In this document: piece after piece, positions 2 through 17,471 of the stretch | How positions within the stretch are numbered: the first letter of the stretch is position 1 | Layout: every line of letters begins with the position of its first letter | IMG/VR virus record: IMGVR_UViG_3300038398_000120 | Location: 1-26,274 of that record | Length of the DNA: 26,274 nt | Source of the DNA: a virus | Reading direction: 5' to 3' (one strand) | The notes under the pieces: generated by a model | What the model was told of the DNA's origin: nothing | Database searches by the model: none | What the model saw: only the letters and a program-made list of their open reading frames with translations | Translations under genes and position numbers: made by a program

Positions 2-952
2 AGGCGAGAGGAGTTCGATGCATCTGAAGAGGGTCAAGCACTAGCAGAAGCCCCACAAGAAGAGCAGGACTTTCGACAACTTGACCGTTTTGGGGCTGAG
101 ATTAAACCCGGCCCTGTGAGCCAATCAACTCAAGACTTACAGATGAGGACAGAACCCTCTGGTAGTCCGAAAACGCAGGATTTGCAACTCTTACAGGCTT
201 TGAATCAAGCGGCTATTCGTGATTCTCATTATAATCCAATGAGAAACCGCCCGCCCGGTGTGGACCCACCGATGCCTGAGACTTCTCCTGCTGATGTGGG
301 GTCTCTGCCTGCTCCTAAAAGACCATATGAGAAAAAACCGTTTCCGGATGAGGGCCGACCTGTTATAGGTGGGCCTTCCACCATTGCTGAGTTTGAATCG
401 GGTAGAGAACCTAAGAACATCTTCGCTAGGTCCTTCGATGGGCCTCTCAATCATGCTTGGTCGCTACTCAAGTTCGTAAATAAGAGGAAATACGCTCAGA
501 TGGCTCCTGAAGACTCAGATTCTCAGCCGGGAGGCGTATATCAGCAGGTCCCCCCAACAGAAGACCTAGAACCAGAGGAGGAAGAGGGCGGTGAGTCTTT
601 GATAGACGAAACATACCGTGATGACCCAAACGGTTTGCAAGCATTACTACAATTGCTTGGTGAAAATCCTGATGAGAGGTCTCCGGCAAGAGGTCTCAGT
701 AATTTGCAAGACCCATTCAGGATGAAGAGGCCTGAGATGGAGGATGAGATGAGTGATATGGGTGAAGAAGAGACTCGCCGCTTGTCGCCAGAAATGATAG
801 GTAGTAGATGGCCTGCGAAAGATTGGCATGGGCTTTCGGAAATTGAGGGAGAAATGCCTCAGTTCTCGATGGACAAACCTGAGATGGGTGAGAGAAGGCA
901 ATCTTTGCAGAGTGAGATAGCGAGGAGGGGTAAGCCTGCCCTTCAAGAGTGA
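2..952 (+). CDS. Acidic proline-rich protein, 5' end outside window
   Basis: The frame is open from base 2 with no stop, so the gene begins upstream of the window; the GTG at 116 is only an internal valine codon. The visible 316 residues are rich in Glu, Asp, Pro, Gln and Met and look largely disordered, with an acidic block (PEEEEGGE) in the middle. There is no signal peptide or membrane segment and I do not recognise a family. One segment, PLNHAWSLLKF (about 440-472), resembles the xxxLLK motif repeated in later genes of this operon, but is more divergent. The low-complexity acidic character matches the proteins at 1014 and 7589, so I infer an accessory or internal head protein. The reading frame is secure; the function is unknown. 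Confidence 0.75.
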   Translation, partial: RREEFDASEEGQALAEAPQEEQDFRQLDRFGAEIKPGPVSQSTQDLQMRTEPSGSPKTQDLQLLQALNQAAIRDSHYNPMRNRPPGVDPPMPETSPADVGSLPAPKRPYEKKPFPDEGRPVIGGPSTIAEFESGREPKNIFARSFDGPLNHAWSLLKFVNKRKYAQMAPEDSDSQPGGVYQQVPPTEDLEPEEEEGGESLIDETYRDDPNGLQALLQLLGENPDERSPARGLSNLQDPFRMKRPEMEDEMSDMGEEETRRLSPEMIGSRWPAKDWHGLSEIEGEMPQFSMDKPEMGERRQSLQSEIARRGKPALQE

Positions 953-1013: not shown

Positions 1014-2609
1014 ATGGAGTTATTTGACCCTGAAACCCACAATATACTCATATCTTCCAAACCAAATTGGGTGAATGACGAAAATCCGATGAGTCAAAAG
1101 GAGCAAAGTGAGAGACACGATAGGTTGTTGTCTCAGATTGGGGAATTGGAAAATAAACTGCAAATGAAAATCATCTCAGGTCGTGGACAGAGTGAAGAAT
1201 GGGGGCCTGAGAATTCTATTGCTCTATCTAACGTGCCTGAACCTCTAATTCCTGAGATACTAGGACTTGCTGAAGAGCATAAACAGGACTCGATACTTCA
1301 CTCTCCTAGTGGAACAGGACAGACTGAGTTTTTGAAACCAGATGGAGAAGTTGTAGGTAGGTTAGAGGAAGGCGGTTTTACAGAAAAAAACCCACCGGCT
1401 TACACTGAGTTCCCTACAGGGCAGAAATATGCCTATGGACAGTATACTTCAAATCCTATCGGTTCTGGTTTCGTTGAGATGGGCGAGCCTATGGAAATAG
1501 CCTTCCAGTTGCTCAAAGAAGAGGACGAAACTCCACCTAAGAACTTCGGTGTCAAAGACTACTCTATAATGAATCGTATATTGATGCCGCCAGAACAATT
1601 CGACCATGACCCAAGTGTTATGTTCCCAAGAGAATGCCGAACCTGTGCTGCAGACATTCGTAATTTCAGTGAAGGTGTTCCTATGGATGATAAACAAGGA
1701 ATCTGCACAGGTTGTCTTCACCCTGAAAGCCGTGATGCTGCATTTGACAATGCAATGAGTAATCCAACAGCAGAAGAACCACAATTCGGAGACAGTTGGC
1801 AAGGAAAGAACGCATCTGAACCTATGGACATAGCCTTCCAGTTGCTCAAAGAAGTACCACAGGATTTCGGTAATTTTCATGACCCGAACTTCAGATATGA
1901 GAAAACTTATGGAGATGCAAGGGAATACCGAGACATTCCGATAAAGGATGCGAGGTTCGCACCGTTAGATAGTTCTGACTTCGACCAAATGAGGTCAAGC
2001 AACATAAGAAATATCATTGATAATGTGGATAGGATGAACTACGATGCCCCATCTTTGACCTCTTTGGAAAATCGCCCACACGCCGACAAGGACAATTCAC
2101 AGATAAGAGAGTGGTTATCGAGAATGCCGGAATATGTCCGTGATAAAGATGGCAGGATAGCCCCCGTGCCTTTGAGTGACGATGGAGAAACTCATGTGCG
2201 CTTTCATCCTAATTCAGGCCCGGACAGGTGGGAATTGGAACAGGAGATGAACTTGAGGGATTTGGAGTCAAAACCCACGCTATTTAATGAAGAACATCCG
2301 TTTTCAGAAGAGTTCCAAGACCTGCAAAGAAGCGAACCAATGGATATAGCCCTCCGGTTGCTCAAGGAGAGAGTGTCACCAGAGGCGAGACAGCACAAAC
2401 TGGAGTATGATACGAAATATGAGTCGAACCCGAAGAGGGTGAAATACCGTGAGGACTTGAATCGAGAGAGGAGACGAAGAGGCATCTACGGCACAGGTGG
2501 TGGTAAGGATGTCAGCCATACGGAAGGTGGGAAACTGACGTTAGAAGGCATACATTCCAATCGGGCTCGGCATTTCAAAGATAAAGGAACGTTGAGACAC
2601 GCTATTTGA
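1014..2609 (+). CDS. Multi-segment protein with three EPMxIAxxLLK motifs, a zinc ribbon and an HNH-like tail
   Basis: A 531-residue protein from the ATG at 1014. Three near-identical motifs end at K168, K279 and K451 and divide it into segments of about 168, 111, 172 and 80 residues. The second segment has four cysteines (C208, C211, C231, C234) in a CxxC-CxxC zinc-ribbon pattern. The last segment is basic (RERRRRGIYGTGGGKDVSH, then NRARHFKDKG). It resembles the small HNH-like domain common as a free protein in marine phages, which I recognise from memory only. If the viral protease cuts after each LLK, this is a polyprotein releasing four pieces. The start is doubtful: the frame is open back to 921, the upstream codons look coding (KVLVRKAQQ), and the ATG lacks a clear ribosome binding site. 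No overall family is recognised. Confidence 0.75.
   Translation: MELFDPETHNILISSKPNWVNDENPMSQKEQSERHDRLLSQIGELENKLQMKIISGRGQSEEWGPENSIALSNVPEPLIPEILGLAEEHKQDSILHSPSGTGQTEFLKPDGEVVGRLEEGGFTEKNPPAYTEFPTGQKYAYGQYTSNPIGSGFVEMGEPMEIAFQLLKEEDETPPKNFGVKDYSIMNRILMPPEQFDHDPSVMFPRECRTCAADIRNFSEGVPMDDKQGICTGCLHPESRDAAFDNAMSNPTAEEPQFGDSWQGKNASEPMDIAFQLLKEVPQDFGNFHDPNFRYEKTYGDAREYRDIPIKDARFAPLDSSDFDQMRSSNIRNIIDNVDRMNYDAPSLTSLENRPHADKDNSQIREWLSRMPEYVRDKDGRIAPVPLSDDGETHVRFHPNSGPDRWELEQEMNLRDLESKPTLFNEEHPFSEEFQDLQRSEPMDIALRLLKERVSPEARQHKLEYDTKYESNPKRVKYREDLNRERRRRGIYGTGGGKDVSHTEGGKLTLEGIHSNRARHFKDKGTLRHAI
1485..2366 (+). repeat. Three dispersed copies of the EPMxIAxxLLK coding motif
   Basis: Copies lie at 1485-1517, 1818-1850 and 2334-2366. 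They read EPMEIAFQLLK, EPMDIAFQLLK and EPMDIALRLLK. The first two, extended to the following GAA codon, differ at 2 of 36 bases; the third is more diverged in synonymous positions. This points to selection on the peptide as well as relatively recent duplication. Each lysine is followed by glutamate. Confidence 0.9.
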
Positions 2610-2660
2610 GTCCAGAAAAAACAGAACCCTTATCATCTTCCCTCTCGCGGGGTCTATTTA

Positions 2661-2666
2661 GAGGTC
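2661..2666 (+). promoter_or_regulatory. Ribosome binding site GAGGTC
   Basis: GAGGT lies six bases before the ATG at 2673 and is complementary to the anti-Shine-Dalgarno end of 16S rRNA. It follows a 63-base gap that also holds a short T/A-rich stretch (about 2654-2660). The site supports the ATG at 2673 and shows that this genome uses Shine-Dalgarno initiation where genes do not overlap. Confidence 0.5.
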
Positions 2667-2672
2667 ATAATA

Positions 2673-3299
2673 ATGAGTGTGCAAGACCCCATGGATAAAT
2701 CAGAGATGAGATTGACTGGATTGATACTCACGCAATCGTTACTTATCGGTGCGGCTGTAGGTGTTTATGATGCAGGGATATGGTTACCGGGAGGAGAAAG
2801 TGCTGGGCATTACGTAAATGGGATAACTTACGCTATGGGAGCGTTGGCTGTTCAAATTTTGGCTTACTACCTCTTCAAGATGTTCTTCGAAGAGCAGATG
2901 CAAGACAAAGTGAGAGTATCTGAGTTGCAGCGACAGAGGGATTATCGCTTTAGGGAACAGCAGTTCAACTATGACCAGAGAAGAGCAGATATGGAACTCA
3001 GGATGCAGGAGATGCAGTTAGAGAAGGAGTTGCATTGGATTCAACAAAATCCCGGACAAACGCCTCCCCATTCAAATATCGGTATGCAAGGTTTAGGAAT
3101 AGACACGATATCTTCACCTCCTTTAGTAGAAGCAAGGCCATTGAGCATGGGTTTGGATTCTCTCACAGAGCAAACACCATTTGGATTGGAAAGCGCGCCA
3201 GTAATACCAAGACCGAGAGTTCCTTCGAGCCTCAATGTGAGATTGAAGAAAGATGGAACCCCAGACTTAAGATACAAGGGTAATGGTAGCGGTAATTGA
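2673..3299 (+). CDS. Two-helix membrane protein with a long coiled coil
   Basis: A 208-residue protein with two hydrophobic segments (about residues 14-34 and 50-71). A charged, Gln/Glu/Arg-rich stretch from about 74 to 128 should form a coiled coil (RQRDYRFREQQFNYDQRR). A proline-rich, probably flexible tail follows. The topology suggests a hairpin in the membrane with a long helical arm on one side. Its stop overlaps the start of the next gene, which also encodes a membrane protein, and the small GTPase follows, so the three are probably translated together. I do not recognise a family. Candidate roles, all inferred, are a membrane scaffold for the GTPase, a holin-like or lysis factor, or a minor virion membrane protein. 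Confidence 0.75.
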   Translation: MSVQDPMDKSEMRLTGLILTQSLLIGAAVGVYDAGIWLPGGESAGHYVNGITYAMGALAVQILAYYLFKMFFEEQMQDKVRVSELQRQRDYRFREQQFNYDQRRADMELRMQEMQLEKELHWIQQNPGQTPPHSNIGMQGLGIDTISSPPLVEARPLSMGLDSLTEQTPFGLESAPVIPRPRVPSSLNVRLKKDGTPDLRYKGNGSGN

Positions 3300-3565
3300 T
3301 GGGACGCATCTTCAAAACTCCGAAAGATGATTCTGTTGAGGAAACTCTTCGCGCTATGCATCTCGCCAATACTGTGGACAACACCTATGAGTGGGGTGTT
3401 GGTTGGATTAGGACCATTATCGCAACCGTAGTTGCCGCTCTCTTGGTGAGTGCCATTGAGTCCAATTCTTCATTTTCGCTTTGGGGTTGGACTGTAGAAT
3501 GGGCTTATGGTCAAGCGCAAGATTTGGCTGATTGGTTGTATAGTAAAATAGATGCGGCGGTCTGA
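3299..3565 (+). CDS. Small single-helix membrane protein
   Basis: An 88-residue protein. The ATG at 3299 overlaps the upstream TGA by one base; a TTG three bases earlier is in frame but less likely. It has a charged N-terminus (GRIFKTPKDDSVEETL) and one strongly hydrophobic helix (about residues 37-55, with TIIATVVAALLVSAI). An aromatic C-terminal part (LWGWTVEWAYGQ) may be amphipathic. It sits between the coiled-coil membrane protein and the GTPase with only three bases before the latter. A role as membrane partner of the GTPase is inferred from position only; no family is recognised. Confidence 0.7.
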   Translation: MGRIFKTPKDDSVEETLRAMHLANTVDNTYEWGVGWIRTIIATVVAALLVSAIESNSSFSLWGWTVEWAYGQAQDLADWLYSKIDAAV

Positions 3566-3568
3566 TTC

Positions 3569-4282
3569 ATGGTCGGAATGGGTAGCGTCCTGATAGGCGT
3601 AGCCCTGTATGGCAAGAATGTCTATCATTCTTGGAGACCAAGGAGGGTAGGAATCTATGGTGGCACAATGGTTGGTAAGACCACACTTGACAGATATATG
3701 ACTACTCCCGGTGAGATGGGAGAGATACCAGAAGACGAGAGGACAGAACATTATAAAATACTGAGTAGATATTTACTTCCCAAACCGACGAGAAAGAGAA
3801 TCGCTTGGGAGGGAGAGAAGAGAGTTGTGTATTCTGCTGATATTGGGGGACAGGAGAGGTTCTGGAATCTTTGGATTGACGATATGGTTGCTAGACAGTG
3901 TGAAGTGATAGTTTACATGTTCGATGACCGCGCTTTCAAGGGCGGCGGTGATGGATTGGAACAAATTGCCGGTTTCAAGTATCTTGTGGATAGTCTCATA
4001 GAGCGGCGGTATAGATACAGAACTCTCAAAAGTAGATGGAGGGGTAAGAAATACAGTCCTCGATTACTGATGTTAGTTGCTAACAAGGCTGATAGGTTTT
4101 TTGATAAGAATGCTGCAGAACTATGGCAGCAGGGAAGAATAGGCGAACACAAGTTATTCGACCCTTTCCGAGATGACTTAATCCGTCTTCAGAAGGCGAG
4201 ACTACCCACAAAACGTGCTTTCATGGCCACAAGGATAGGTTGGAACGTAGAATCAACCATGATTGAATTATTGACCACTTGA
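3569..4282 (+). CDS. Ras-superfamily small GTPase (Arf/MglA/Gtr-like)
   Basis: A 237-residue protein with the standard GTPase motifs. The P-loop is GGTMVGKT (G31 to T38), switch II is DIGGQE (D91-E96, the DxGGQ form of Arf, SR-beta and MglA-like proteins), and the base-specificity motif is NKAD (N172-D175). A likely G5 is MATRIG near residue 219. The glutamine needed for hydrolysis in Arf/Ras proteins (Q95) is present, so it should bind and hydrolyse GTP. The first 16 residues are mildly hydrophobic and followed by basic residues (SWRPRR), which could give peripheral membrane contact. Two membrane-protein genes precede it. GTPases of this class act as switches in membrane traffic and polarity; what it does in a virus is unknown. 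The GTPase call is firm, the subfamily is not. Confidence 0.88.
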   Translation: MVGMGSVLIGVALYGKNVYHSWRPRRVGIYGGTMVGKTTLDRYMTTPGEMGEIPEDERTEHYKILSRYLLPKPTRKRIAWEGEKRVVYSADIGGQERFWNLWIDDMVARQCEVIVYMFDDRAFKGGGDGLEQIAGFKYLVDSLIERRYRYRTLKSRWRGKKYSPRLLMLVANKADRFFDKNAAELWQQGRIGEHKLFDPFRDDLIRLQKARLPTKRAFMATRIGWNVESTMIELLTT

Positions 4283-4506
4283 GTGACCTTTTTGATGTAG
4301 AGGGGTGTCGGGCATACATGACAAGAGGTAAGACGACTACTGCTTTGGTTCCCACTGGAGGGGGTAGTAATTCGTTGAGAACCACAGTTCCCATGTGGAT
4401 TGTCCATCAATTTGGATTGACTGCTGGGAATAAATTGGAGTGGAGTTTATCGGCCCAAAATGGCAAAATGACTATTCACGTAGCGCCTGCGCCTTTGGAG
4501 GACTAA
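4279..4506 (+). CDS. AbrB/SpoVT-like swapped-hairpin DNA-binding protein
   Basis: A 75-residue protein. Residues about 33-70 (SLRTTVPMWIVHQFGLTAG, then LEWSLSAQNGKMTIHVAP) match the AbrB/SpoVT pattern: a strand, a 'vP..iv..lgl..Gd.lew' helix and turn, then a closing strand. AbrB-fold proteins are dimeric transcription regulators or antitoxins. The chosen start is a TTG overlapping the upstream stop (TTGA), the same junction style as at 17468. An ATG at 4318 (M14) with AGAGGGG 12 bases upstream is a plausible alternative and keeps the whole domain. It lies directly after the GTPase, and I see no toxin partner beside it. It may regulate virion genes, bind host promoters, or serve as a structural DNA-binding protein. 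Confidence 0.75.
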   Translation: MSDLFDVEGCRAYMTRGKTTTALVPTGGGSNSLRTTVPMWIVHQFGLTAGNKLEWSLSAQNGKMTIHVAPAPLED

Positions 4507-4508
4507 AC

Positions 4509-5537
4509 ATGGTATTGGACATCCCAGATAATATGTATCGCACAATAACCAGAACGCCCTTACCATCACAATCGTTGAGTAATCTGAGTGAAGCCGCTGT
4601 GATGAGTCTTGCTCAACAAGGTAATCCTCAATTCAATCAAGCGGCTATAATGGAACAAGCCACCGCTCAACAGTATATGCAGAGTTATGCAGTTCAACAG
4701 AATTTGGAGGTTCCTAAAGTCAATTTCTATCCGAGTCGTCATGCAGACCCAAGAAAGGCTCGTAAGCATGACATCAAGCAGGCATACAAGTTGTTGAGAC
4801 CCACGAAGCGTTCTCTACTCGACCCTCGTAGATGGGCTTGGAGTAATTACAGATACAACAAGGATAGTGCGGTTTGCGTTGTTGATGGGTGTGATTGTAA
4901 GAAACTCATAGAATACGACAATCTCTATGCGAGAATAACAGATGAAGAGTCGGGTAGAAGCCTTTGGGAGATGTATTGGCAGAATCCGATTTCTGGTGAG
5001 ACCGAAGCATTCCTTGCGAGAACAGGAGTCACAAGTGGTAGGTTAATGCGAGGAACTTATTGTCCTGAACATCTTCATCTCTATCATCTTCTCTGCAAAT
5101 GGGAGGATGAGCAAGATAAAGAAGATGAAATGAAACCGAGTAGGTTCCGAGACAAGATAAAACAGGGAGTCAGTATAGTCACAGTGCCTGTAGCGGCTAT
5201 TCAGGGCACTGATGATACAGTCTCAGTGCCCGAATTGGTTCAGAAATACGAACCATTCTTTCAAGAGATAGAGAAGGATTCCAATAAAACCAAAGGCATC
5301 AATGTTTGGCACATACCAAATCCGGAGAGTGGTATGAACGATATAACTATGATACAATTTGACATGAGGATGTTTCAAAGAGAAGCGGAAGAATACCAAG
5401 CGGCTGCTCAAGCAGCATTCAATAGTGTTCTCAACCAACAGACTCAAACACTCGCCCCTGCTCCGGTAATACAACCGCCTCCAGTGGTGGCTCAAGCAGC
5501 ACAAACGGTAGTTACAAATCAAGAGGTAGCACAATGA
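4509..5537 (+). CDS. Unknown protein with a putative zinc site
   Basis: A 342-residue protein if it begins at the ATG at 4509, two bases after the upstream stop; the longer open frame from 4440 would overlap the AbrB gene. The N-terminus is Gln/Ser-rich, followed by a basic stretch (ADPRKARKHDIKQAYKLL). Cysteines C123, C128 and C130 pair with a later CPEH (C185, H188), suggesting a zinc-stabilised fold around 120-200. The last 60 residues are Ala/Gln/Pro-rich (AQAAQTVVTNQEVAQ). Its stop overlaps the next start (ATGA). The mixture of a folded core and Gln-rich ends is typical of virion components, but no family is recognised and that role is an inference from context. Confidence 0.72.
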   Translation: MVLDIPDNMYRTITRTPLPSQSLSNLSEAAVMSLAQQGNPQFNQAAIMEQATAQQYMQSYAVQQNLEVPKVNFYPSRHADPRKARKHDIKQAYKLLRPTKRSLLDPRRWAWSNYRYNKDSAVCVVDGCDCKKLIEYDNLYARITDEESGRSLWEMYWQNPISGETEAFLARTGVTSGRLMRGTYCPEHLHLYHLLCKWEDEQDKEDEMKPSRFRDKIKQGVSIVTVPVAAIQGTDDTVSVPELVQKYEPFFQEIEKDSNKTKGINVWHIPNPESGMNDITMIQFDMRMFQREAEEYQAAAQAAFNSVLNQQTQTLAPAPVIQPPPVVAQAAQTVVTNQEVAQ

Positions 5538-6175
5538 CGCTTGGTCTTTCGAATATGAATGCCTCACCGACTAGCACTCTCAGTTTGGGATTAACACCGC
5601 AATCACAACCAGAATCAAGTGATTATGGGGCTCAGTATAACACCGCTTATGGTGGGGCCTCTCCTTTCACTGCTGGTATTCTAGGTGGAGCGGGAATTTC
5701 GGCTCAACAGTATCAACAGTATCAACAGCCGATAGCGCCTCCTTCAGATACTCAAGTTCTCGCTGCCATGCTTGGCACTCTTCAGCCTATTGACAGATTC
5801 ATCATAAGTCAGAATATGCCGGTGTTCATAGAGATGCTTTCCAATCTCACTACTTACTCCATACTCAATGTTCTCAAGAATTGCACATTCACTTTGGATG
5901 AAGAGGGAACTATGGCTTTGGATGTTACTAGTATGCCTAGTGACCTACAAACATTGAGTGCTGAGAATATCATCGCCCAACTCAATTCTCTGCAGAATAC
6001 TTCCATGCAGATAATACAAAAAGCGGAAGGAGAAAGACAGCAGATTTTGCAGTTGGCAGACCAATCTTTGTTACAGGGAGCATTGAGCAGTGCACTTGCT
6101 GACCCCGGAATGTTAGAGGGTGTCGGACAGGCGGCTGGCGGTTTCATCAATAGGTCAATATTCGGGAGAGGTTGA
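5534..6175 (+). CDS. Unknown helical protein with a Gln-rich N-terminal linker
   Basis: A 213-residue protein starting in an ATGA overlap with the previous gene. Residues 1-75 are low complexity, ending in a short QQYQQYQQ repeat encoded by a 9-base tandem repeat at 5705-5728. From about 78 it is predominantly helical, with hydrophobic stretches (MPVFIEMLSNLTTYSILNVL) and a heptad-like segment (AEGERQQILQLADQSLL). It ends in a Gly-rich tail. There is no convincing membrane helix and no recognised domain. Its neighbours make a structural or assembly role plausible. Confidence 0.7.
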   Translation: MTLGLSNMNASPTSTLSLGLTPQSQPESSDYGAQYNTAYGGASPFTAGILGGAGISAQQYQQYQQPIAPPSDTQVLAAMLGTLQPIDRFIISQNMPVFIEMLSNLTTYSILNVLKNCTFTLDEEGTMALDVTSMPSDLQTLSAENIIAQLNSLQNTSMQIIQKAEGERQQILQLADQSLLQGALSSALADPGMLEGVGQAAGGFINRSIFGRG

Positions 6176-6176
6176 G

Positions 6177-6440
6177 ATGATTAGTGGAGGGGGTATGCGA
6201 GGTAATATGCCCGGTTCGAAGCAGTTTGCAGGTATGTCTCTTAATCTGATGGCTCCTAAGCACAGCGTCATCATTGATATGGTAATGATACAACTTATTA
6301 GCGCCATTCTCTGCTCTATGCTCATACTCGCTCTCAAAGGTAATGAGATTAACCAGATGGATGCCTCTTTCATAATGATGGGCATCTTTGCCTCCATCAT
6401 GTTGTTAGGCGGGATTTACACTCGGATAAATCGGATGTAA
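6177..6440 (+). CDS. Small two-helix membrane protein
   Basis: An 87-residue protein beginning at the ATG one base after the upstream TGA; an in-frame start at 6120 would run inside the previous gene and is rejected. A Gly/Met-rich N-terminus leads into two hydrophobic helices (about residues 34-53 and 62-80), separated by a short charged loop (KGNEINQMDAS). Size and topology are compatible with a class II holin, but similar small proteins occur widely in archaeal viruses and no family signature is visible. A lysis role is only one possibility. Confidence 0.65.
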   Translation: MISGGGMRGNMPGSKQFAGMSLNLMAPKHSVIIDMVMIQLISAILCSMLILALKGNEINQMDASFIMMGIFASIMLLGGIYTRINRM

Positions 6441-6489
6441 ATCATATAATGCAACAACGTTCATGTGGTATCTGTAACTCCGACTTTGT

Positions 6490-7164
6490 GTGGCCGAGCG
6501 AGAGCAAGTGGTCAAGAGGTCTTGCGCCTTTTGTCAAAGTGATACGAGAGAGGCCTTGGAAGGGGCCTTATTGAGTGGTGAAATATCGCATAAGGAACTA
6601 GATAAGGAGATGAGTTGGAGGGCCAACACATCAGACCGTCATTACAGGAATCACATGGGGGACTATCACATGGCGGCGAATCCCTCTTGTCTTATTTGCA
6701 CGCATGAGCAACGCGGTGATTTAGAGACCGCTTACTTTGAAGGAAGCCTTCCCAGCGAGGAGTTAGCGGAGTTATTGGAATGTGCTGAATCTTCAGTATA
6801 TCATCACATGAAACACCATTTTCAACCGCTTGTAAGAAAGGCGGCGGCGATAGAGGTCTCTCTAGCGCTTGGTCAAGAGATGAACGCCCTTCGTTCCAAC
6901 GCTGAAAGACTCAACGACAAACTCAATGAGTTACTTGAGGATGGTAGTGTCCATGAGGACGGTTTTGTCAAAGATGCGGTCTCTCTTCACAAAGAGGTGA
7001 GAGAGACAATCAAGGATTTGGTGAAATTGGATGAGAAGTGGGGTCCAGAGACCGAAGGGACTCAAATCAATCAGACGATAAATATCCTCAAGGTCGAATT
7101 AGCCAAGGAGAGTCCTGATAGTTGGAAGAGAATCAAGAGTCAGTTATTGGAACAGGTGGAGTGA
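6490..7164 (+). CDS. Duplicated CxxC-HTH-HxxxH protein, candidate small terminase subunit
   Basis: A 224-residue protein from a GTG at 6490; a GTG at 6508 is an alternative. It contains two copies of one module with a period of exactly 55 residues: C12/C15 with H51/H55, and C67/C70 with H106/H110. Between each Cys pair and His pair lies a helix-turn-helix-like stretch (SEELAELLECAESSVYHHM in the second copy), so each copy looks like a zinc-stabilised HTH. A coiled coil follows, then a segment (KEVRETIKDLVKLDEKWG, with QINQTINILK) similar in pattern to the C-terminal part of phage small terminase subunits. If that is right, it would recognise packaging sites for the terminase at 12203. The DNA-binding call is reasonable; the TerS call is tentative. 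Confidence 0.6.
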   Translation: MAEREQVVKRSCAFCQSDTREALEGALLSGEISHKELDKEMSWRANTSDRHYRNHMGDYHMAANPSCLICTHEQRGDLETAYFEGSLPSEELAELLECAESSVYHHMKHHFQPLVRKAAAIEVSLALGQEMNALRSNAERLNDKLNELLEDGSVHEDGFVKDAVSLHKEVRETIKDLVKLDEKWGPETEGTQINQTINILKVELAKESPDSWKRIKSQLLEQVE

Positions 7165-7592
7165 GTATTTTGAATCAGATAGTTATCAGTGATTTGCTGC
7201 AAATGGGGCATCCCGGATATCGCCTCTTGAAACAGCAGTCAAAGATAACACCCAAACAACTTCCTACTTTTCTGGATTATGTCTCTCTAATCTATCAGCG
7301 TTTCAAATATTACATCAATGAAGAATCCCATGGTAACATGGAATATGGTAATTATCTCATAGAGATAATGGAGGCTCTGAAGACATTGACCGAGGAAGAT
7401 GAGCCTGCTGTAGTGATTCCCGTTCGTGAGAAACTCAAGTCACTTCTACCTCATTTCGAGGAAGAGTGTAAGAGTATGGGTAAGTGTTTTACAAGCCCTC
7501 CTTTTGTTAAGGGCTTCTATGCAGAACTGGCCGAAATGGTCAAAGAATCTGCTTATGAGGTTATGGGGCCAGTAGTGGAGGTTATGGAATGA
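7161..7592 (+). CDS. Unknown helical protein
   Basis: A 143-residue protein starting at the GTG at 7161, which overlaps the previous TGA (GTGA). An in-frame TTG at 7122 would lie inside the preceding gene. It is mostly helical with alternating charged and hydrophobic residues (FKYYINEESHGNMEYGNYL). It has no cysteine pairs, membrane helix or known motif that I can see. It is translationally coupled to the candidate small terminase upstream and to the acidic protein downstream. Function unknown. Confidence 0.68.
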   Translation: MSILNQIVISDLLQMGHPGYRLLKQQSKITPKQLPTFLDYVSLIYQRFKYYINEESHGNMEYGNYLIEIMEALKTLTEEDEPAVVIPVREKLKSLLPHFEEECKSMGKCFTSPPFVKGFYAELAEMVKESAYEVMGPVVEVME

Positions 7593-9064
7593 AAGTTCGT
7601 CGTGGTTTTGTCTTGATTAAGACTGGAGGGATGATGGGAAGAGGTAGTGATACTCGGATGTATGCTCCGAGAAGTGAATCTTCCTCTATGTTCCGTACTA
7701 ATGACGGAGAAGACAGGTATGAATCAGAAACACCTGATTCTGGTCGTAGTCCGTCTGACCCAAGATATGCTGATGCTGAGAAGGAAAAGAGGCAGAATGA
7801 CCAAGATAAGCAAGATGAGAGAGTGAGGGAGCGTAAACATTTCAAAATAACGCTCGACATGTTAGCAGGTCTCTCAGATGATGAAGATGATGATGAAGAT
7901 GAACCGTGGCGTTCCGATGAGCAATATGACGAGGAGAATGAGCCCGACAAGTTTGACATAGATAGAGAATTACACGCCCAGACTGGGCCTGCTGGTAATC
8001 TCGGCGCTTTGACCAGCCTTGCTACTCAAGCGAGAGGTCCGGGTTTCGCCTATGGACATCCAGTTCAGATGAGTGAACTGATTGAGATACCATTCCAGTT
8101 GCTCAAGTCTTTCTCAGCAGAGGATAATCCAGATATCTCGATGATGAGACCTTTGGACTTGCGTGGCAAGGAAACCAAAGAAACAGAGCGAGGTCGTTCT
8201 AAAGAGGAAGGTAAGAAATGGAGACCAAGCACTGGGACTTTCAAGAAGCCTCCCGGTGGAATGATGGGTGGTATTGGTGCTACTATGAGGTCTTACAAAG
8301 CCAAGAGGAGAGGAGTTCGTAGAGGCACTAAGACTGGTATGATGAATGCCCCGCTTTCTGTGGAGATGGAACACAGGGGAGTTGCTGTTAAGCAGCCTAA
8401 GTCGAAAGACCCTGCTGCTTATCGAGAGTATCTAGGACAGCAGGACGCGATAAAGAGGCAAGGTAACGTCAGAGTGACTGCCGCCAGCCCTTCAAAGAGC
8501 AATCCAAGAAAATATTTCGCAGGTGCAACTGGCGGTGGTAGATTGCAATCATTGCTACCTTCAGAGAGAAACTTGGGAGCAACGGGAGCGGGAGCAACGG
8601 GAGCGGGAGCAATGGGAGCAATGGGAACAAAGGGAATGCCGAAGCCTAAGTTGAAGCCTCATCGTCCTCCACCAATAGTTCCGCCTACAATCAGTGGAAG
8701 GCCTCGTCTCAATATGGGCGGTTCTTCTAATCCATTCTCAGGAAGCATGTCTTCTCAAAGCATGGCTACATCCTTCGACATCTTTGCAGGAAGTGATTTG
8801 CAGAAGAAGCATAACTGGGGAGAACAGCAGGAAATCAGATTGTTGATGCATAAAGTCAAGAGGCTGCTTGAGGAAAAGGAGAGCAAGAAGAAAGGTAAGG
8901 GGGACAAGGGAGGCAAAGATGCCCATCATCCCAATCATCCGGCTAACGGGCCGAAACAGACCAATAGGAACGAAGGCGGGACATCAGACCCTACTAACGA
9001 GCCCAGATATTTCGGGACAGACCCTGTTGGTATATACACCAGCAGGAGTGGAAGAACAGCATGA
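7589..9064 (+). CDS. Low-complexity protein with one EPMxIAxxLLK-type motif
   Basis: A 491-residue protein, ATG overlapping the previous TGA. The N-terminal 130 residues are highly charged, with an acidic run (LSDDEDDDEDEPW). The motif ELIEIPFQLLK follows at residues 163-173, preceded by FAYG, which also stands some 20 residues before the first motif of the 1014 gene. After the motif the protein turns basic and Gly/Met/Ala-rich, with a Gly-Ala-Thr repeat encoded by 15-base units, then a basic C-terminal segment (KRLLEEKESKKKGKGDKGG). An acidic N-part and a basic remainder split by the motif suggest that cleavage there would release a basic, possibly DNA-binding portion. No family is recognised; an internal head protein is inferred. 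Confidence 0.7.
   Translation: MKVRRGFVLIKTGGMMGRGSDTRMYAPRSESSSMFRTNDGEDRYESETPDSGRSPSDPRYADAEKEKRQNDQDKQDERVRERKHFKITLDMLAGLSDDEDDDEDEPWRSDEQYDEENEPDKFDIDRELHAQTGPAGNLGALTSLATQARGPGFAYGHPVQMSELIEIPFQLLKSFSAEDNPDISMMRPLDLRGKETKETERGRSKEEGKKWRPSTGTFKKPPGGMMGGIGATMRSYKAKRRGVRRGTKTGMMNAPLSVEMEHRGVAVKQPKSKDPAAYREYLGQQDAIKRQGNVRVTAASPSKSNPRKYFAGATGGGRLQSLLPSERNLGATGAGATGAGAMGAMGTKGMPKPKLKPHRPPPIVPPTISGRPRLNMGGSSNPFSGSMSSQSMATSFDIFAGSDLQKKHNWGEQQEIRLLMHKVKRLLEEKESKKKGKGDKGGKDAHHPNHPANGPKQTNRNEGGTSDPTNEPRYFGTDPVGIYTSRSGRTA
8075..8107 (+). other. EPMxIAxxLLK-type motif (ELIEIPFQLLK)
   Basis: The fourth clear copy of the peptide motif shared with the gene at 1014. The lysine is followed by SFSAED. 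The acidic part of the host protein lies before it and the basic part after it. Confidence 0.75.
8576..8620 (+). repeat. 15-base tandem repeat, three units
   Basis: Two exact copies of a 15-base unit (8576-8590 and 8591-8605, GGAGCAACGGGAGCG), then a near copy (8606-8620). It encodes a Gly-Ala-Thr-rich linker in the 491-residue protein. The length is probably variable between relatives by slippage. Confidence 0.85.
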
Positions 9065-11238
9065 GCGTGATATCTTCACTTCTCAATTCTCCTCTGTTGC
9101 TTAGAAAAGGAGAGGGAATCTTTCGAGTGGACCCGGAGACTGGTGAACCAGTCTACATCGGGATGCCTCACGAAGGGATATTCCACGACGACGAGAAGAA
9201 CCCGTTGCATTATGGGATTGACTTGCCTCTACACGCTCATCTCGGAGACCGGACACCAAGTGGACAGTGGATGAAGGGCGAGCATGGGGAGATGGTCTGG
9301 CAGGATGAATACGGACATACTCACAGGCACGGCATTGACGGGTTGATACACAAACTCGGTGAGTTAGGCGTTCCTGACCCTTATGATTTCATTCAAGAGG
9401 TCATTGACCACGTCAATAAGAATCACACCAACGACGCTATGAAGATACCCAGCCTAGAGGATGCCGCTTGGAGGAAGTTAGTGGCTCATGGTTACAGTCC
9501 TTCTTACAGTGAAGAAGATGCTCTCAGTTATCCCTACAACGGAAAAGGAGGCACTTTCGCTACACTGAATATGAGTTCTGACCCGGAAGCGTCCAAGGCC
9601 AAGTTCAAACTGGCTCATCATCCTGAGTCATACAGGCTAGGTTTCGCCCCAATCCTCAAACAAATGCTGGCAGAGAAATACGGCATAGACTTCCCTGAGG
9701 GGGCATACGAAGAGGGAATCACACATGGTTACATATCTGGCGAAGACCTCAGTTGGGACCAAAATGGTATACCAGTAGCAAAGAGATTGAAGAGTAAGTT
9801 CGGTGAGGCGCTCACACCTCAGGGTTTGCTTCCTCCTCATATCGCTGATGCGCTTGGTGTTACTGATAACCAAGTCCAACCCTTCCAAGAGGCTGTGCAT
9901 AGTTGGGAGATGTATCATGCCCTACCAGCGATTCTCGCTCATCCTGACGCGCAGCAGATTTTCAAGGAGTTCGAGGGTAAGAGGGCTGGAGGGAGGCCGT
10001 TCAGTCCTGTGATATACGAAAAGGCACTCGCTAAATTCGCTCCCAATATGCTTGCTAAAACCCCTCCTGAACTGTTGGACACCCCGATAATAAATGTAGA
10101 GGGTGGGCAGATGTCTCTGAGACAGGCATTACAAGATGAGACTGGCATTAAAATATTGGCAGGTCAGATGATGAAGAGTCCCGCTGCTCTTGCTTTCCTG
10201 CTTGGGAATGCAGACCAAGCGGGAGCGGCCAATCACATCCTCGATGAGATGCACAGTCAGTTGCTCTCACAACTCTCACCTGAGGAAGCCAAGGCTCTCG
10301 ATAATACCATGATGGGGATAACTGCTGGTAAGACTCCCGGCGCTCAAGACAGGAACAGTCATGAAATGGGAAAGAAACTGTTCGGTCTAGCGCACCATGT
10401 GGAACCCGAATCAATGAAGGAGTTCGCACTTAAGCACTTCCCGCCTCACCCGGATTTAGAGGCGCAGGACGGTTTGTTCAATATCGTGGCTGATTCCATC
10501 TCTCACGCTCATGGCCATCAACCGAGAAGAGCAACCACAGAGGCTCCTGACTACTCCAACGTCACTCTTCCCAGACTGTTGGACCAACACATGGGTCCAG
10601 TGCCTATACCTCCGCATCTGGCTGAGAGACTAATACCAGAATGGCAGGAACACCCTCAACCACAGGCCGGTCCTGACTCTGATGAGGAGATGACGCCACT
10701 CGCTCCGCCAGCGCCCTCTGGTGATTCTGACATATGGAATCGCATCGCTAATTATTCCCCAGAGACTCAAGCGCAGATATACGAGCATTTCAAGACACAA
10801 AATCCTCAACATGCTATTGATGAATCATCTCTTCAAACTCAGGCATTGCAAAGTGGGCAAGAGTTCACGCCACAAATGGCAGCGCAGCGTTTCATCAATG
10901 CCCAGAGGCAAAAGTCGGAGACTACTCAACAGACTCTGCCAGATTACCCAGTGGCTGCCAGTTTTGATACGATACCAGTGGAAGACAGGCTAATCAAAGC
11001 GATGGAGAGATTGCAGATGTTAGATGCCAAGAAAGATGTGGCAGTCTTGAAGAGGGTGTCCACAGTCCCATCAGGCACAACAGATAGTCATTCGTTCTTG
11101 GCTGATAAGATGGGGCTTGAAAAGCAGGACATTAGAGCAATCGCTCATAGCAAAGGGGATTGGAATCGTGTGGCGAAGGCGTATAATACAAAACCTGTTC
11201 TCGTTAAAGCAGTGAAGGTATCTTTGGAGGGACAGTGA
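9061..11238 (+). CDS. Large His-rich protein of unknown function
   Basis: A 725-residue protein in an ATGA overlap with the previous gene. The N-terminal 100 residues carry many histidines (LHYGIDLPLHAHLGD, YGHTHRHGIDG), which may bind metal. The middle, about 120-500, looks folded and mainly helical (AVHSWEMYHALPAILAHPD). From about 500 it is Pro/Gln-rich, then a short helical C-terminus (VEDRLIKAMERLQML) ends in VLVKAVKVSLEGQ. The N-terminus SSLLNSPLLLRKGEG and this C-terminus resemble other LL(V)K/RK stretches in the operon. Its place between the acidic protein and the terminase suggests a virion or internal head protein. I cannot assign a family. Confidence 0.7.
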   Translation: MSVISSLLNSPLLLRKGEGIFRVDPETGEPVYIGMPHEGIFHDDEKNPLHYGIDLPLHAHLGDRTPSGQWMKGEHGEMVWQDEYGHTHRHGIDGLIHKLGELGVPDPYDFIQEVIDHVNKNHTNDAMKIPSLEDAAWRKLVAHGYSPSYSEEDALSYPYNGKGGTFATLNMSSDPEASKAKFKLAHHPESYRLGFAPILKQMLAEKYGIDFPEGAYEEGITHGYISGEDLSWDQNGIPVAKRLKSKFGEALTPQGLLPPHIADALGVTDNQVQPFQEAVHSWEMYHALPAILAHPDAQQIFKEFEGKRAGGRPFSPVIYEKALAKFAPNMLAKTPPELLDTPIINVEGGQMSLRQALQDETGIKILAGQMMKSPAALAFLLGNADQAGAANHILDEMHSQLLSQLSPEEAKALDNTMMGITAGKTPGAQDRNSHEMGKKLFGLAHHVEPESMKEFALKHFPPHPDLEAQDGLFNIVADSISHAHGHQPRRATTEAPDYSNVTLPRLLDQHMGPVPIPPHLAERLIPEWQEHPQPQAGPDSDEEMTPLAPPAPSGDSDIWNRIANYSPETQAQIYEHFKTQNPQHAIDESSLQTQALQSGQEFTPQMAAQRFINAQRQKSETTQQTLPDYPVAASFDTIPVEDRLIKAMERLQMLDAKKDVAVLKRVSTVPSGTTDSHSFLADKMGLEKQDIRAIAHSKGDWNRVAKAYNTKPVLVKAVKVSLEGQ

Positions 11239-12206
11239 TGGGTAAGGTTCTGGTCAAAGCAAACAGCGGCGGTGGCGGTAGTAGTGGCGCTGGCAGTGGA
11301 AGTCTAAGCGCTGGATTGCTAGGGAATTTAATGGGAAAACCGAAAACTGGTTTAGGTGGCTTTGCTGCTGGCAGTCTTGGTGCTCTTCAGTTCTTGACCA
11401 GCCTTGCAGATGCCGGAGCGAATCAACAAGACATAGTGAGTGGGGCTGGTTCTGCTGCGGCGTATGGTGCAGCGACAGGGGCTGGAGCAGGTAAGGCTGG
11501 AGATGCTCTTGACCCTTCTGACCGGGTTGGTCAGGCTATTGGATATCACAGACCGGGTGGTTGGAAACAACAGATAGCAGCATATGCTCCGGCTCGTCCT
11601 CCTTCCGGTCAAGGAGGAGGTATGCCCAATCAAGGTCAATGGAATAGATGGGGAAATCAAGGTTTCAATGTGCCTACTGGTTTTCAGTTAGGTAATACCG
11701 GAGGGGCTACAGATACCAGAGGGGGGCACTATGACCCCTCTACTGGAAAGAAGACCGCCGATTTATTCGGAAGCCCCACCACAATAAACCCCTCTTCTGG
11801 TAGCGTTGTTCCTAGAATATCTCCATCACTTTCGACCCCATCACTTTCTTCGGGCGCACCAATATCGCCACCACCAGTCGCGCCAGTCGCAGTCAGTCAA
11901 TCGTCTCCGACTACAGGTACTACAACTGGCGCTACAAGCCAAGGGGGTGGATATGTGCCGAGTGCACCTGAGCAAGTGCGAGATTATAATATGGATTATG
12001 ATATGCCGAATATGGATGACCAATCTATGGGAGACCAATCTATGGCTGATGTTGAAACTCCAGTCTTAGATACCCAGTTGGTGGAGGAAACTCCTCTGCC
12101 AACAGAAGAAGAGGATTTGGAGCAGATATTGTCGGGCGGAGTGCAATTGCCGAAGAGTGAGCCTATGGAGATTGCATTCCGATTACTGAAGGCGGCGGCA
12201 CGATGA
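11238..12206 (+). CDS. Gly/Pro-rich protein ending in an EPMxIAxxLLK motif
   Basis: A 322-residue protein. The ATG at 11238 shares its A with the upstream TGA; a GTG at 11235 is also possible. It starts GKVLVKANSGGGG. A Gly/Ala-rich segment (GAGSAAAYGAATGAGAGKAG) could form a small-residue helix. Long Gly/Pro/Ser/Thr stretches follow, then an acidic tail (DQSMGDQSMAD, PTEEEDLEQIL) and the C-terminal EPMEIAFRLLKAAAR. Having the motif at the extreme C-terminus fits a capsid- or scaffold-docking peptide, or a maturation site that removes only AAAR. Its end overlaps the terminase start by four bases. Family unknown. Confidence 0.7.
   Translation: MGKVLVKANSGGGGSSGAGSGSLSAGLLGNLMGKPKTGLGGFAAGSLGALQFLTSLADAGANQQDIVSGAGSAAAYGAATGAGAGKAGDALDPSDRVGQAIGYHRPGGWKQQIAAYAPARPPSGQGGGMPNQGQWNRWGNQGFNVPTGFQLGNTGGATDTRGGHYDPSTGKKTADLFGSPTTINPSSGSVVPRISPSLSTPSLSSGAPISPPPVAPVAVSQSSPTTGTTTGATSQGGGYVPSAPEQVRDYNMDYDMPNMDDQSMGDQSMADVETPVLDTQLVEETPLPTEEEDLEQILSGGVQLPKSEPMEIAFRLLKAAAR
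12159..12191 (+). other. C-terminal EPMxIAxxLLK motif
   Basis: The peptide EPMEIAFRLLK lies four residues (AAAR) before the stop. It is the closest match outside the 1014 gene, using partly different codons from those copies, so the similarity is kept at the peptide level. Confidence 0.85.
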
Positions 12207-13687
12207 CTAATGAGAGCATGCAGGAATTCATTGACCAGATGGACTTCGAGATGTCTAAGAAGTCGTTCGAGTATTTCTTCATGGATATACTGGGTTTCGA
12301 GATGAACTGGCATCATGACGAGTGGAAGATAGGTCTGGACAAACATCAGTATTTCTGCGTGAAGGCATCTCGTGACCATGGTAAATCAGTTTTCTTCATG
12401 TCATATGCCTTGTGGCTAGCCACTTTTAATCCCGGATTACATGTCATGATTTTTTCTCACTCCCTTGAACAGACTCTTGAGCACATGCGTTTCATCAAGC
12501 AAAACATAGACGGCAACAATATCTTGAGACCTTTGATTCCAGAGGGCAGACCATGGGCGAAGTCATACTTCGAACTATCGAATGGCTCTCGAATAATGGC
12601 TAAATCGGTTGGAGGGGCCACTCGTGGATTCCACCCTGATGTTGTTGTTTGCGACGATATCTTGTGGGGCACAACGGGAACCGAATTGCAGAGAGCAGCA
12701 GATTGGTTCTACGGTGTCCTTCTCCCGGTTCTCCATCACAGTAGTAAACTAATGATGGTAGGAACGCCATTCAGTTACAATGACCTGTATGCAGAATTGG
12801 AGGAGAAAGAGACCTTTGTGGTAGACACTTATCCAGCAATCAACTCGGAAGGCGAGGCGTTGTGGCCCAGTAGATGGGATTTGGAATCTTTAGAACGGAG
12901 GAGAATGAGCATGCCAGCCATTCAGTTCAGTCGAGAGTATCTCTGTGAGCCGATTCACGATGTCGCTAGTATGTTCCCGATGGACATACTAGAAGCGTCT
13001 AGAGACACCAAACTCGTTCTTCTTGACAGAGCAGAGACGAATTACAACGAAGAGGGGGAGGCAGATGGTGTGTTCGGACAGCATTTCATCGGGCATGACC
13101 CGGCAATTTCATCGGATAAGAACGCTGACTTCACTGCTATGACTGTCATGCGACAGAAACCCAATGAGGATTTCAAAGAGATAGTTCACGTTGTGCATGA
13201 GCGTGGAATGTCTTCAATGGCGCAGAAGAGGATGATGGTGATACTCAATAGCAGATTCTCTCCTGAACTCATAGAACTTGAGGGTAATAACTTCCAGCGC
13301 ATGCTTGAACAAGAGATGAGGGAAATGAGGGCAGATATGCCAATCAGAGTATTCATGACCACTCGTGCAAAGAAAGAGTCTCTTTTCATGAGTCTTTTGC
13401 TCGCTTTCGAGCAAGGTCAAATCAAATTACCGTATGGTAATGAGAAGAGTAGGAAGTATACACACGAGTTGGAAATTGAATTGAATCGTTTTGGTATGCA
13501 GAAGAACGGCAAGTTAGAGAGCGTTGGTGTTCATGATGATTTGGCGATGAGTCTCGCTCTTGCAAATTGGGCCTCAAAGGAATTCAGAGGGTCGGTAGTT
13601 ATGCTTGATGATTATATGCCGGGATTCGATGAATGGCTCAGTGGCGAACCTAGGAGTGGAGACGGGGATTCGTGGTTAATATCGTAA
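12203..13687 (+). CDS. terL: Large terminase subunit (packaging ATPase and nuclease)
   Basis: A 494-residue protein, usual size for the family. The ATPase half has Walker A ASRDHGKS (55-62, the RDHGKS form common in phage terminases), Walker B VVVCDD (147-152) and a coupling motif MMVGTPF (184-190). The nuclease half has an RNase H-like layout: GHDPAIS with D299, an acidic strand LIELEGNN (E358/E360) and VHDDLAMSLA with D445/D446. All key positions look intact. It should pump viral DNA into the procapsid through the portal and cut it. The ATG overlaps the previous TGA; a 69-base gap follows. The expected next gene, the portal, is separated from it by a LAGLIDADG protein. Confident call. Confidence 0.95.
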   Translation: MTNESMQEFIDQMDFEMSKKSFEYFFMDILGFEMNWHHDEWKIGLDKHQYFCVKASRDHGKSVFFMSYALWLATFNPGLHVMIFSHSLEQTLEHMRFIKQNIDGNNILRPLIPEGRPWAKSYFELSNGSRIMAKSVGGATRGFHPDVVVCDDILWGTTGTELQRAADWFYGVLLPVLHHSSKLMMVGTPFSYNDLYAELEEKETFVVDTYPAINSEGEALWPSRWDLESLERRRMSMPAIQFSREYLCEPIHDVASMFPMDILEASRDTKLVLLDRAETNYNEEGEADGVFGQHFIGHDPAISSDKNADFTAMTVMRQKPNEDFKEIVHVVHERGMSSMAQKRMMVILNSRFSPELIELEGNNFQRMLEQEMREMRADMPIRVFMTTRAKKESLFMSLLLAFEQGQIKLPYGNEKSRKYTHELEIELNRFGMQKNGKLESVGVHDDLAMSLALANWASKEFRGSVVMLDDYMPGFDEWLSGEPRSGDGDSWLIS

Positions 13688-13756: not shown

Positions 13757-14896
13757 ATGTGGTCGAGCGCTTTTCTTGAAGAGGATAATATCTTCGAAAA
13801 AGCCATAAATGAGGAAAAGGAAGTAGAGGCTCCTCAATATGTGTTCTCTAACACCGGAAGAGGTTGGTTCGAGACTCACTTAGGGTGTTCTTCTTCTGAT
13901 TTCATAAACAGACTTCAGAAGATGGGAAAAGACAACGAGGAAGTGAGAACCGAAGTGGATTCGATAATTGAAGATGTCAAGTCTCTCAAATCTTTGGAGA
14001 TTAAAGCCACCCTATCCTCCTTATCTTGGACCAAAGACAGAAGTAACATCATCAAGAGTTTAGGAGTCACAGACGAAGATTTGAGGAGTCTCAGGAAGTT
14101 CGGTAATTCAAGAAGTGTGAGTTTGATACAGGCATGTAATCTCTGGGAAGGAGCAGATAATGCTCTCAAGATGTTGGACGATTTCCAAGATGTCTGGGAT
14201 GAAGAGGAAAGGAACGCTTGGCACAATGCTATGTCACAGAAGACTGATGCGATAAAAGTGTGGAAAACTGCTCTTCATCAAATAGACAGATTGACACAGA
14301 AGGAGAAGGATATACTCAATAAGACCTCTGAGATACTTGAAAGTGAGGGGGCCTTGACCAGTAGGAGGCTTCAAGAGAGGATGATGGATTCCTCTTTCTT
14401 GCAAAAGAGCATGAGTCCTTCCAAATTGTCTAAACTACTTTCGATGTATGGCGAGGAAGTTGATATCATAGCAGGAGGCGGTAGAAGAACATTCGTGAAA
14501 ATGTCTGATTATGGTATTATCATCAAGGACCCTTGGTCTTATGCAGCAGATTTCTTGGAAGGGGACGGGTTCATCACAATCACCGAAAGAGGAGAACCGC
14601 GTGCTGGTTTCATCGCTACTGGGAAAAGAGGAAAAGCGCATTGTGAAGAGTTGCACAAATCTCTCGATTGTGGCTCTCTTCAACTTAATCAGAAAAGCAA
14701 TAACATAATCATACATAGACTCTTATTCTATCAGGAAGACGAGATAAGGAAGTTGTTGGAAGGAATCTCTCCGTATGTGAAAGATAAGAATGGACAAGTC
14801 GAGAGAGTTTTATCTTACCTGAATACGAATGACTTGGAGAAAAGGGAAACAATCAAGCGGGTTGTTAGAGGCGCAAATGGGGAAGGTGGTGCTTAA
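13757..14896 (+). CDS. Winged-helix/LAGLIDADG-type protein
   Basis: A 379-residue protein with three parts. Residues 1-190 are charged and helical with no recognised domain. About 195-250 looks like a winged helix (ALTSRRLQERM, then FVKMSDYGIII). From 262, YAADFLEGDGFITI matches the LAGLIDADG motif, with the acidic D270 in the expected place and a following strand (RAGFIATGK) and helix typical of that fold. Only one motif is seen, so it would act as a dimer or as a DNA-binding fold without cutting. Homing endonucleases often sit beside terminase genes, but here the gene is intact, collinear and overlaps the portal start (TAATG). That argues for a domesticated packaging or regulatory role. The domain call is moderately sure; the function is inferred. 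Confidence 0.65.
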   Translation: MWSSAFLEEDNIFEKAINEEKEVEAPQYVFSNTGRGWFETHLGCSSSDFINRLQKMGKDNEEVRTEVDSIIEDVKSLKSLEIKATLSSLSWTKDRSNIIKSLGVTDEDLRSLRKFGNSRSVSLIQACNLWEGADNALKMLDDFQDVWDEEERNAWHNAMSQKTDAIKVWKTALHQIDRLTQKEKDILNKTSEILESEGALTSRRLQERMMDSSFLQKSMSPSKLSKLLSMYGEEVDIIAGGGRRTFVKMSDYGIIIKDPWSYAADFLEGDGFITITERGEPRAGFIATGKRGKAHCEELHKSLDCGSLQLNQKSNNIIIHRLLFYQEDEIRKLLEGISPYVKDKNGQVERVLSYLNTNDLEKRETIKRVVRGANGEGGA

Positions 14897-17117: not shown

Positions 17118-17471
17118 GTGATAGAAGCCGAGAGTAATACTGAGCGTTTGATGAACGCTCTTATCAACAAGATGGAGAGTATGGACGGTTCATTAGGTGA
17201 ACTCAAAAGTGAGAATAGAGAACTCAGGAAGATGTTACTCAATCCGGGACAACTTCTGAAAAGAGCGGGTTTTGTATCAATGACTACCCCTCTTTCCGAA
17301 GATATTAGAATGGACCCTTTCAGAGGGGATTTACCTCTTGGAGATGCTACACTTCTCAAAACCGATAGTATGGAAATAGGCCTAATGAGCAGTGAAGAGA
17401 TTCACGAGATGTCATGGGATGAGATTCATGAAATGGCAGAGCAGAGTAGAGACACGGATGTGGTAGTTTGA
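17118..17471 (+). CDS. Small coiled-coil protein with an EMSWxExH tail motif
   Basis: A 117-residue protein from a GTG with GTGAGG seven bases upstream. Residues 1-40 form a coiled coil (NALINKMESMDGSLGELK). Two LLK sites follow, QLLKRAG and ATLLKTDSMEIG (K81). The latter resembles the capsid-protein site ELLKADSP and contains the 'MEI' of the EPMxIA motif. The C-terminus SEEIHEMSWDEIHEMAEQ is strikingly similar to the C-terminus of the protease-scaffold (TEDLAEMSWTEVHNLANR). This suggests that both bind the same partner, plausibly the inner surface of the capsid. A small scaffold or internal protein is the likely role. Family unknown. Confidence 0.7.
   Translation: MIEAESNTERLMNALINKMESMDGSLGELKSENRELRKMLLNPGQLLKRAGFVSMTTPLSEDIRMDPFRGDLPLGDATLLKTDSMEIGLMSSEEIHEMSWDEIHEMAEQSRDTDVVV

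Follow-up and report, generated by a model that had tools for sequence, protein, structure and literature searches.

The peptide pattern EPMxIAxxLLK, which recurs in a 26,274-base virus record (IMG/VR IMGVR_UViG_3300038398_000120; hereafter 'the window'), appears to be the form taken between protein modules by a portable docking tag, an amphipathic helix that would direct proteins into the procapsid in a clade of tailed viruses, a reading to which we assign a probability of roughly 0.55. The tag would bind a component of the assembling procapsid, be it the scaffold-protease, the interior of the major capsid protein (MCP) or a conserved late protein. Late-made host-modifying enzymes and structural partners would be packed in the particle by means of the tag, and these cargos would be delivered to the next host along with the DNA. 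A tag common to all cargos would let recombination at the tags add, remove, rearrange and fuse modules. Docking for procapsid entry had been suggested in the initial annotation of this DNA and is the best of the explanations tested, with the binding role of the helix, the entry of carriers into the virion, the partner of the tag and the injection of cargos being the steps of it that we infer. A more sweeping proposal, to which we give slightly under even odds, is that a universal helix label of 10–12 residues, in position-specific forms, loads well over 100 effector families from a fast-changing set into the capsid and also serves as a recombination seam at which effectors are swapped and fused.

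Copies of the motif in the window

Exact matches to EPM[DE]IAxxLLK lie at positions 1485–1517, 1818–1850, 2334–2366 and 12159–12191, and these four full copies stand against an expectation of none from 100 dinucleotide shuffles of the window. The first three fall, as first annotated, in a 531-aa modular protein (1014..2609, + strand), where the tags GEPMEIAFQLLK (1482..1517, +; residues 157–168; an exact match; PSSM score 43.6 bits), SEPMDIAFQLLK (1815..1850, +; residues 268–279; 47.8 bits) and SEPMDIALRLLK (2331..2366, +; residues 440–451; 42.3 bits) separate an N-terminal module, two middle modules and a C-terminal basic module. The protein has no Pfam match. Its basic module, behind the third tag (2367..2597, +), matches phrog_6437 (E 6e-18) and is the commonest module behind internal tags, forming the largest module cluster with 97 segments. 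The fourth copy, SEPMEIAFRLLK (12156..12191, +; residues 308–319; 40.8 bits), confirms the motif reported at the extreme C-terminus of a '322-residue' protein; the protein, which is Gly/Ser-rich and encoded immediately upstream of the terminase (11235..12206, +), has 323 residues, with the motif itself at residues 309–319. Genomes G010 and G017 encode C-terminally tagged proteins at the matching position.

A further copy had been claimed for a 491-aa protein (7589..9064, +), which is conserved, disordered and basic, with a single tag site at a fixed place and homologues in tagged genomes. Here the site stands but the full motif does not: the window's own copy, SELIEIPFQLLK (8072..8107, +; residues 162–173; 25 bits), is degenerate. 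All eight aligned orthologues, the window's own included, keep a [GS]E motif at the tag column, the seven others as [GS]EPM. At this column the others carry GEPMNIAFQLLK, GEPMEIAYQLLK or SEPMDxAWSxLLK-type copies, some longer by one residue; the site is kept in orthologues of this conserved carrier. The weaker form noted in the first gene is present (GPLNHAWSLLK; 440..472, +) and fits the wider tag family described below. This gene is open at the window's 5′ edge and encodes 426 aa in the near-identical genome G002.

Forms and abundance of the tag

Between protein modules, the tag reads [GS]EPM[DEN][IL]A[FMWY][QR]LLK, and degenerate DNA scans find this internal form in 105 IMG/VR stretches and a [GS]EPMxLA variant in 43. 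Constraint extends to positions that the first search had left free: among 136 unique contexts, G or S occupies position −1 in 133, D, E or N occupies +4 in 134, and Q or R occupies +8 in every one, with +7 being mostly M, F, W, Y or L. A looser search revealed an N-terminal form, M-x-[PA]-F-[DE]-x-A-W-x-L-L-K, in at least 120 IMG/VR stretches, and C-terminal copies occur occasionally. Among the loci listed, a tag lies in the first 40 residues of 369 unique proteins, mostly at residue 3–4. When the 367 single-tag N-terminal proteins among these loci are compared by blastp with their tags masked, they fall into ~158 families (112 of them singletons), a blastp-based split that may give fewer families by structure. 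These families look non-homologous by this comparison; the consensus of 129 representatives is MxAFDxAWxLLK, and mean column identity is 5% overall. Neighbouring tagged genes form runs of up to 12.

In ten near-full-length genomes, chosen because the motif is present, the PSSM finds 96 hits of at least 6 bits versus 0.2 in shuffled proteins, and a looser pattern finds 88 matches versus none in shuffled and none in reversed proteins. Several carriers are low in complexity, which might favor chance resemblance, but the shuffled and reversed controls give essentially no matches and refute that explanation. The flanks of the motif had been described as low in complexity and not alignable; this description holds only in part, as carriers are strings of modules, many of which align across viruses. 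One full-text search of an open-access library for the peptide strings returned no match; on this basis we call the motif undescribed, as had been surmised.

Restriction to one virus clade

The tag is specific to one virus clade. In a motif-independent sample of 34 contigs chosen by MCP alone, the general pattern occurs in 21, with 83 matches, and the reversed pattern has no match. Among the MCP-bearing contigs without a pattern match, four with an aligned 491-aa homologue carry SEPMxxAWSxLLK-type variants, a fifth carries GEPMEISFQLLK in its 491-aa homologue, and others stop short of the tagged block. Tagged contigs without the window's type of MCP and portal might have represented another virus type; we reject this idea, as six of the seven examined are other parts of the same clade. 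The pattern match in genome G054 is probably due to chance, because only one of its 52 genes has a relative and none has a tag.

In cells, the search covered the internal form, for which there is no confirmed occurrence among 84,980 genomes (species); this result and the retained site in orthologues of the 491-aa protein answer the refuting conditions set in the initial annotation, and both came out in favor of docking. A comparable pattern gave three raw matches, each of which was rejected. L110 (NZMJ01000140.1), filed under a Maricaulis MAG, is probably a mis-binned virus, because most of its genes are 98–100% identical to those of virus contig L056; the L111 match lies in an antisense ORF of 72 aa; and the L112 match is not read by any ORF of at least 60 aa.

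The clade to which the tags are restricted is probably that of the magroviruses, a fit that we judged against the published description of Magrovirales: genomes of 90–110 kb, PolB, a Druskaviridae-like MCP, and opposed replication and morphogenesis modules (PMC12999244, PMC8651126). In line with this description are the MCP relatives of the tagged clade, the content of tagged genome G014, which encodes PolB, an ERCC4 nuclease and a chaperonin, and the span of related genomes (75–116 kb). The window's HK97-type, SU10-like MCP (24978..26120, +) is closest, among annotated phages, to those of haloarchaeal HVTV-1 and HCTV (~31–32%), and viruses assigned to methanogens are also among its relatives. 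Magroviruses and Druskaviridae (HVTV-1) are of one type with the tagged clade: common ground is a related MCP, the three genes just named for G014, and the order TerL–portal–large protein–prohead protease–MCP (PMC12999244). HVTV-1 differs in that the tag pattern is absent from its whole 102-kb record.

Gene neighborhood and proposed cargo of the tag

Tagged genes lie in the neighborhood of virion genes. With the terminase large subunit (12203..13687, +) as the reference point, the ten genomes have 70 tagged genes, of which 65 share the strand of the terminase (Fisher p 5e-13) and 58 lie upstream of it at a distance of no more than 25 kb (p 1e-28). The same neighborhood would be expected of late-expressed genes of any kind, however, and this counts against the docking reading. 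Free tagged proteins include matches to D12 methylase, GNAT and ParB-like nuclease (ParBc_2), and modular carriers contain SAM-lyase-like, DUF3293 and DnaJ-type Zn domains. One tagged family with an HGT motif, which is found near the tag in 24 of the 369 N-terminally tagged proteins among the loci listed, has a profile matching RNA 2′-phosphotransferases (E 6e-4), and single members match ART-PolyVal (E 0.0023; a free tagged protein) and PARP (E 0.0036). A small alarmone hydrolase behind a tag (L078:1640-2059) is modeled by AF2 with a pLDDT of 90.5 and best matches a (p)ppApp hydrolase (TM 0.83). Several homologous tagged copies exist in the clade, and for most relatives found in other phages the alignment begins at about query residue 10–17, behind the tag. 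MPTase-PolyVal and ArdC-N matches occur somewhere in genome G014 rather than on an identified carrier, and most cargos belong to no recognized family.

Cargos of a host-modifying type could also be recruited within the cell, with the tag binding a host protein or a non-virion viral compartment, such as replication, transcription or degradation machinery. The restriction of the tag to one clade would fit a host-specific partner equally, and a virion receptor for the tag is itself a postulate. We nevertheless consider recruitment in the cell unlikely: tagged genes sit alongside virion genes on the virion strand, and the tag is also present on conserved proteins of the virion block (the 491-aa and 323-aa kinds), which a tag for cell-directed effectors leaves unexplained. 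Host-modifying enzymes whose genes lie among late virion genes make most sense if they are packaged and delivered, as T4 Alt is and as has been proposed for polyvalent proteins (PMC5512222, PMC9026906). The tag would then work like a capsid-targeting sequence (CTS).

In phage T4, the CTS carriers IPI, IPII, IPIII and Alt, one of which is an ADP-ribosyltransferase, join the prohead core, and in IPIII the 10 N-terminal residues are enough for packaging (PMC9026906). The CTS resembles the tag in being an N-terminal peptide of ~10 residues, with an aromatic at position 4, on dissimilar proteins (PMC9026906). The N-terminal form of the tag has a CTS-like position (mostly at offset 2–3), whereas the internal and C-terminal forms differ, and the sharing of one peptide among apparently unrelated mature parts recurs in the ~158 families separated by blastp with the tag masked. 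Compared by eye, the sequences are different: T4 IPII and IPIII begin MKTYQEFIAEA, and neither this nor MKTFKEFTST resembles MxAFDxAWxLLK. Moreover, the T4 peptide is N-terminal and cleaved and is found on four proteins, whereas the tag also occurs internally and C-terminally and belongs to an archaeal-type clade.

A second parallel is with polyvalent proteins, which are strings of effectors with ART, nuclease, peptidase and methylase domains, are encoded near portal and terminase genes, and have been predicted to enter the virion and be injected (Iyer et al. 2017, PMC5512222). The types of tagged cargo match the kinds described for these virion-packaged proteins (PMC5512222). Modular carriers combine several unrelated effector-type domains in one polypeptide, the 531-aa protein being the closest such carrier in the window, and the tagged genes of the ten genomes share the terminase neighborhood. 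The difference is that here one short peptide both separates the modules of a fusion and labels their free, single-module counterparts; the polyvalent-protein paper does not use the word 'linker' (PMC5512222).

Module shuffling, shared ancestry and selection

Carriers are shuffled at their tags. When they are cut at the tags, modules recur in varied order and company, as in the arrangements c36-c37-c38 of L070 and c37-c36-c38 of L080. Homologues behind an internal tag exist for 123 modules found behind an N-terminal tag, and in 83 of these 123 pairs both tags end no more than 15 aa from the start of the alignment. For example, L254 (MRPFEQAWRLLK-APVYTDDN) and L122 (TGEPMNLAFRLLK-APVYTDDN) are 96% identical behind the tag. 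The form of the tag follows its position, N-terminal or internal, even where the following module is more than 90% identical. Because alignments begin at tags and the tag form suits its place, the tag is both a seam and a label.

Copies of the tag share DNA ancestry, as indicated by conserved synonymous codons. Synonymous identity within the internal tag is 0.68 within ORFs and 0.50 between ORFs, the latter value possibly including near-identical relatives, versus 0.38 expected from codon usage, and the Arg codon CGG is used in 50% of cases in internal tags versus 5% overall. There is also selection on the peptide, because unsearched positions are constrained and the 491-aa family keeps a fixed site. 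Spread by duplication and retention by selection, which the initial annotation had posed as alternatives, therefore both apply. The conserved codons and the variable module order (L070 versus L080) would also be expected if the motif were mainly a recombination linker, with ~33 bp of shared DNA serving module swapping and the peptide having little function. This we regard as very improbable, since the N-terminal and internal forms differ in both DNA and peptide but preserve the same hydrophobic pattern, the form switches with position in front of nearly identical modules, residues outside the search pattern are constrained, and the 491-aa family holds [GS]EPM at its site despite divergence, including in variants that are one residue longer. 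We also considered internal translation starts, given the ATG within EPM and a GGTGA-like sequence that is sometimes upstream, and rejected them: just 74 of 188 cases have a positive SD score, and the commonest codons upstream of and at EP (GGC/AGC GAA CCA) count against such starts.

The internal consensus is stricter than the N-terminal one, including the upstream [GS]E and preferences at position −4, which suggests an additional role there, possibly cleavage. The prohead protease or another viral protease could cut the polyvalent polyproteins at xx[GS]|EPM or within the motif, releasing modules during capsid maturation; internal copies do sit between modules, the operon also encodes an S78 protease, and the proteases of giant phages process many head proteins (PMC5694885). 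As the explanation of the internal form, however, cleavage seems quite unlikely. Free single-domain proteins carry the tag at residues 3–12 in a different upstream context, cutting at the extreme C-terminal copies would free little, the site would place Glu before Pro with no strongly conserved residue after LLK, and the PSSM search of the ten genomes found no EPM copy in MCP, portal or protease.

Predicted structure and candidate partners

The tag is probably a helix, as judged from AF2 models. In the 531-aa protein, for which the mean pLDDT of 42 supports only local helices, predicted helices at residues 159–169, 270–279 and 442–452 coincide with the three tags. In the alarmone hydrolase, the tag forms a separate helix (residues 3–11) that is poorly placed (first-block pLDDT 53) and is followed by a confidently predicted hydrolase fold.

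If the tag is a docking helix, the fusion of prohead protease (S78; Peptidase_S78 E 9e-10) with a scaffold-like C-terminal part (23547..24959, +) is a candidate for its partner or processing enzyme. A tag-like segment in the scaffold half, DVEAAYEIYKAA (24609..24644, +), is conserved as [VIL]ExAYxVYKAA in all eight proteins compared, and in six of the nine homologues listed it is the best-scoring segment (shuffle p 0.00–0.07), the window's own being an exception. A conserved 365-aa protein (p365) contains a similar segment, DIKQAYKLLRP (4770..4802, +), which has a counterpart (DIKQAYxLLKP) at the matching place in each of the nine homologues listed, with a shuffle p of 0.00–0.07 per protein, and might be a shared docking helix. 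Both segments are of modest significance and were selected from ~20 protein families in one test; their relationship to the tag is therefore offered as a lead only. Tag-like helices were not found in MCP, terminase or the GTPase. An S78 match among the tagged proteins is explained by EIEAAYEVFK inside the protease-scaffold protein itself.

Separately, a second C-terminal peptide is found in two proteins of the window, as EEIHEMSWDEIHEMAEQ (17394–17444) in a 117-aa protein and as STEDLAEMSWTEVHNLAN (24885–24938) at the end of the protease-scaffold protein. It is conserved in both families and could be a further docking peptide of the scaffold.

Implications and other features of the tagged genomes

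Viruses of uncultured marine archaea encode many proteins without recognizable function. If the tag marks virion cargo, effector sets could be named by a simple pattern search, free genes could be linked to fused polyproteins, and a small, defined peptide would be in hand whose partner can be found and tested. More broadly, as a plug-and-play cargo system the proposed one would have no described precedent among archaeal tailed viruses, and it would extend to archaeal viruses a capsid-targeting principle known in detail from T4. It might also allow proteins of choice to be packed into an HK97-type shell. Encapsulin cargo-loading peptides, to which we liken the tag by description only, are short and load unrelated enzymes into an HK97-fold shell; they are C-terminal and belong to cellular compartments.

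Several other features of these genomes deserve mention. The portal ORF (14896..16710, +; identified by domain/profile matches) has a long GGMPPGMPPGM repeat in its C-terminal part (16187–16590). Upstream of the protease, a 1897-aa protein (17824–23517) occupies the place of HVTV-1 gp115, annotated as 'zeta toxin', and has a weak ATP-dependent DNA ligase-type domain (residues 1493–1577, E 1e-4) that is found in relatives too. The region 2673–4282 encodes a protein that is a Ras-like GTPase by sequence motifs, without a Pfam match (237 aa, 3569–4282), adjoining two proteins of 208 and 89 aa that contain membrane segments, a set kept across the clade. Finally, eight of the ten genomes contain a giant ORF of 5,168–6,068 aa that is without annotation (G002:31156-47952; relatives in L141–L142), and pieces of it are also present in further contigs.
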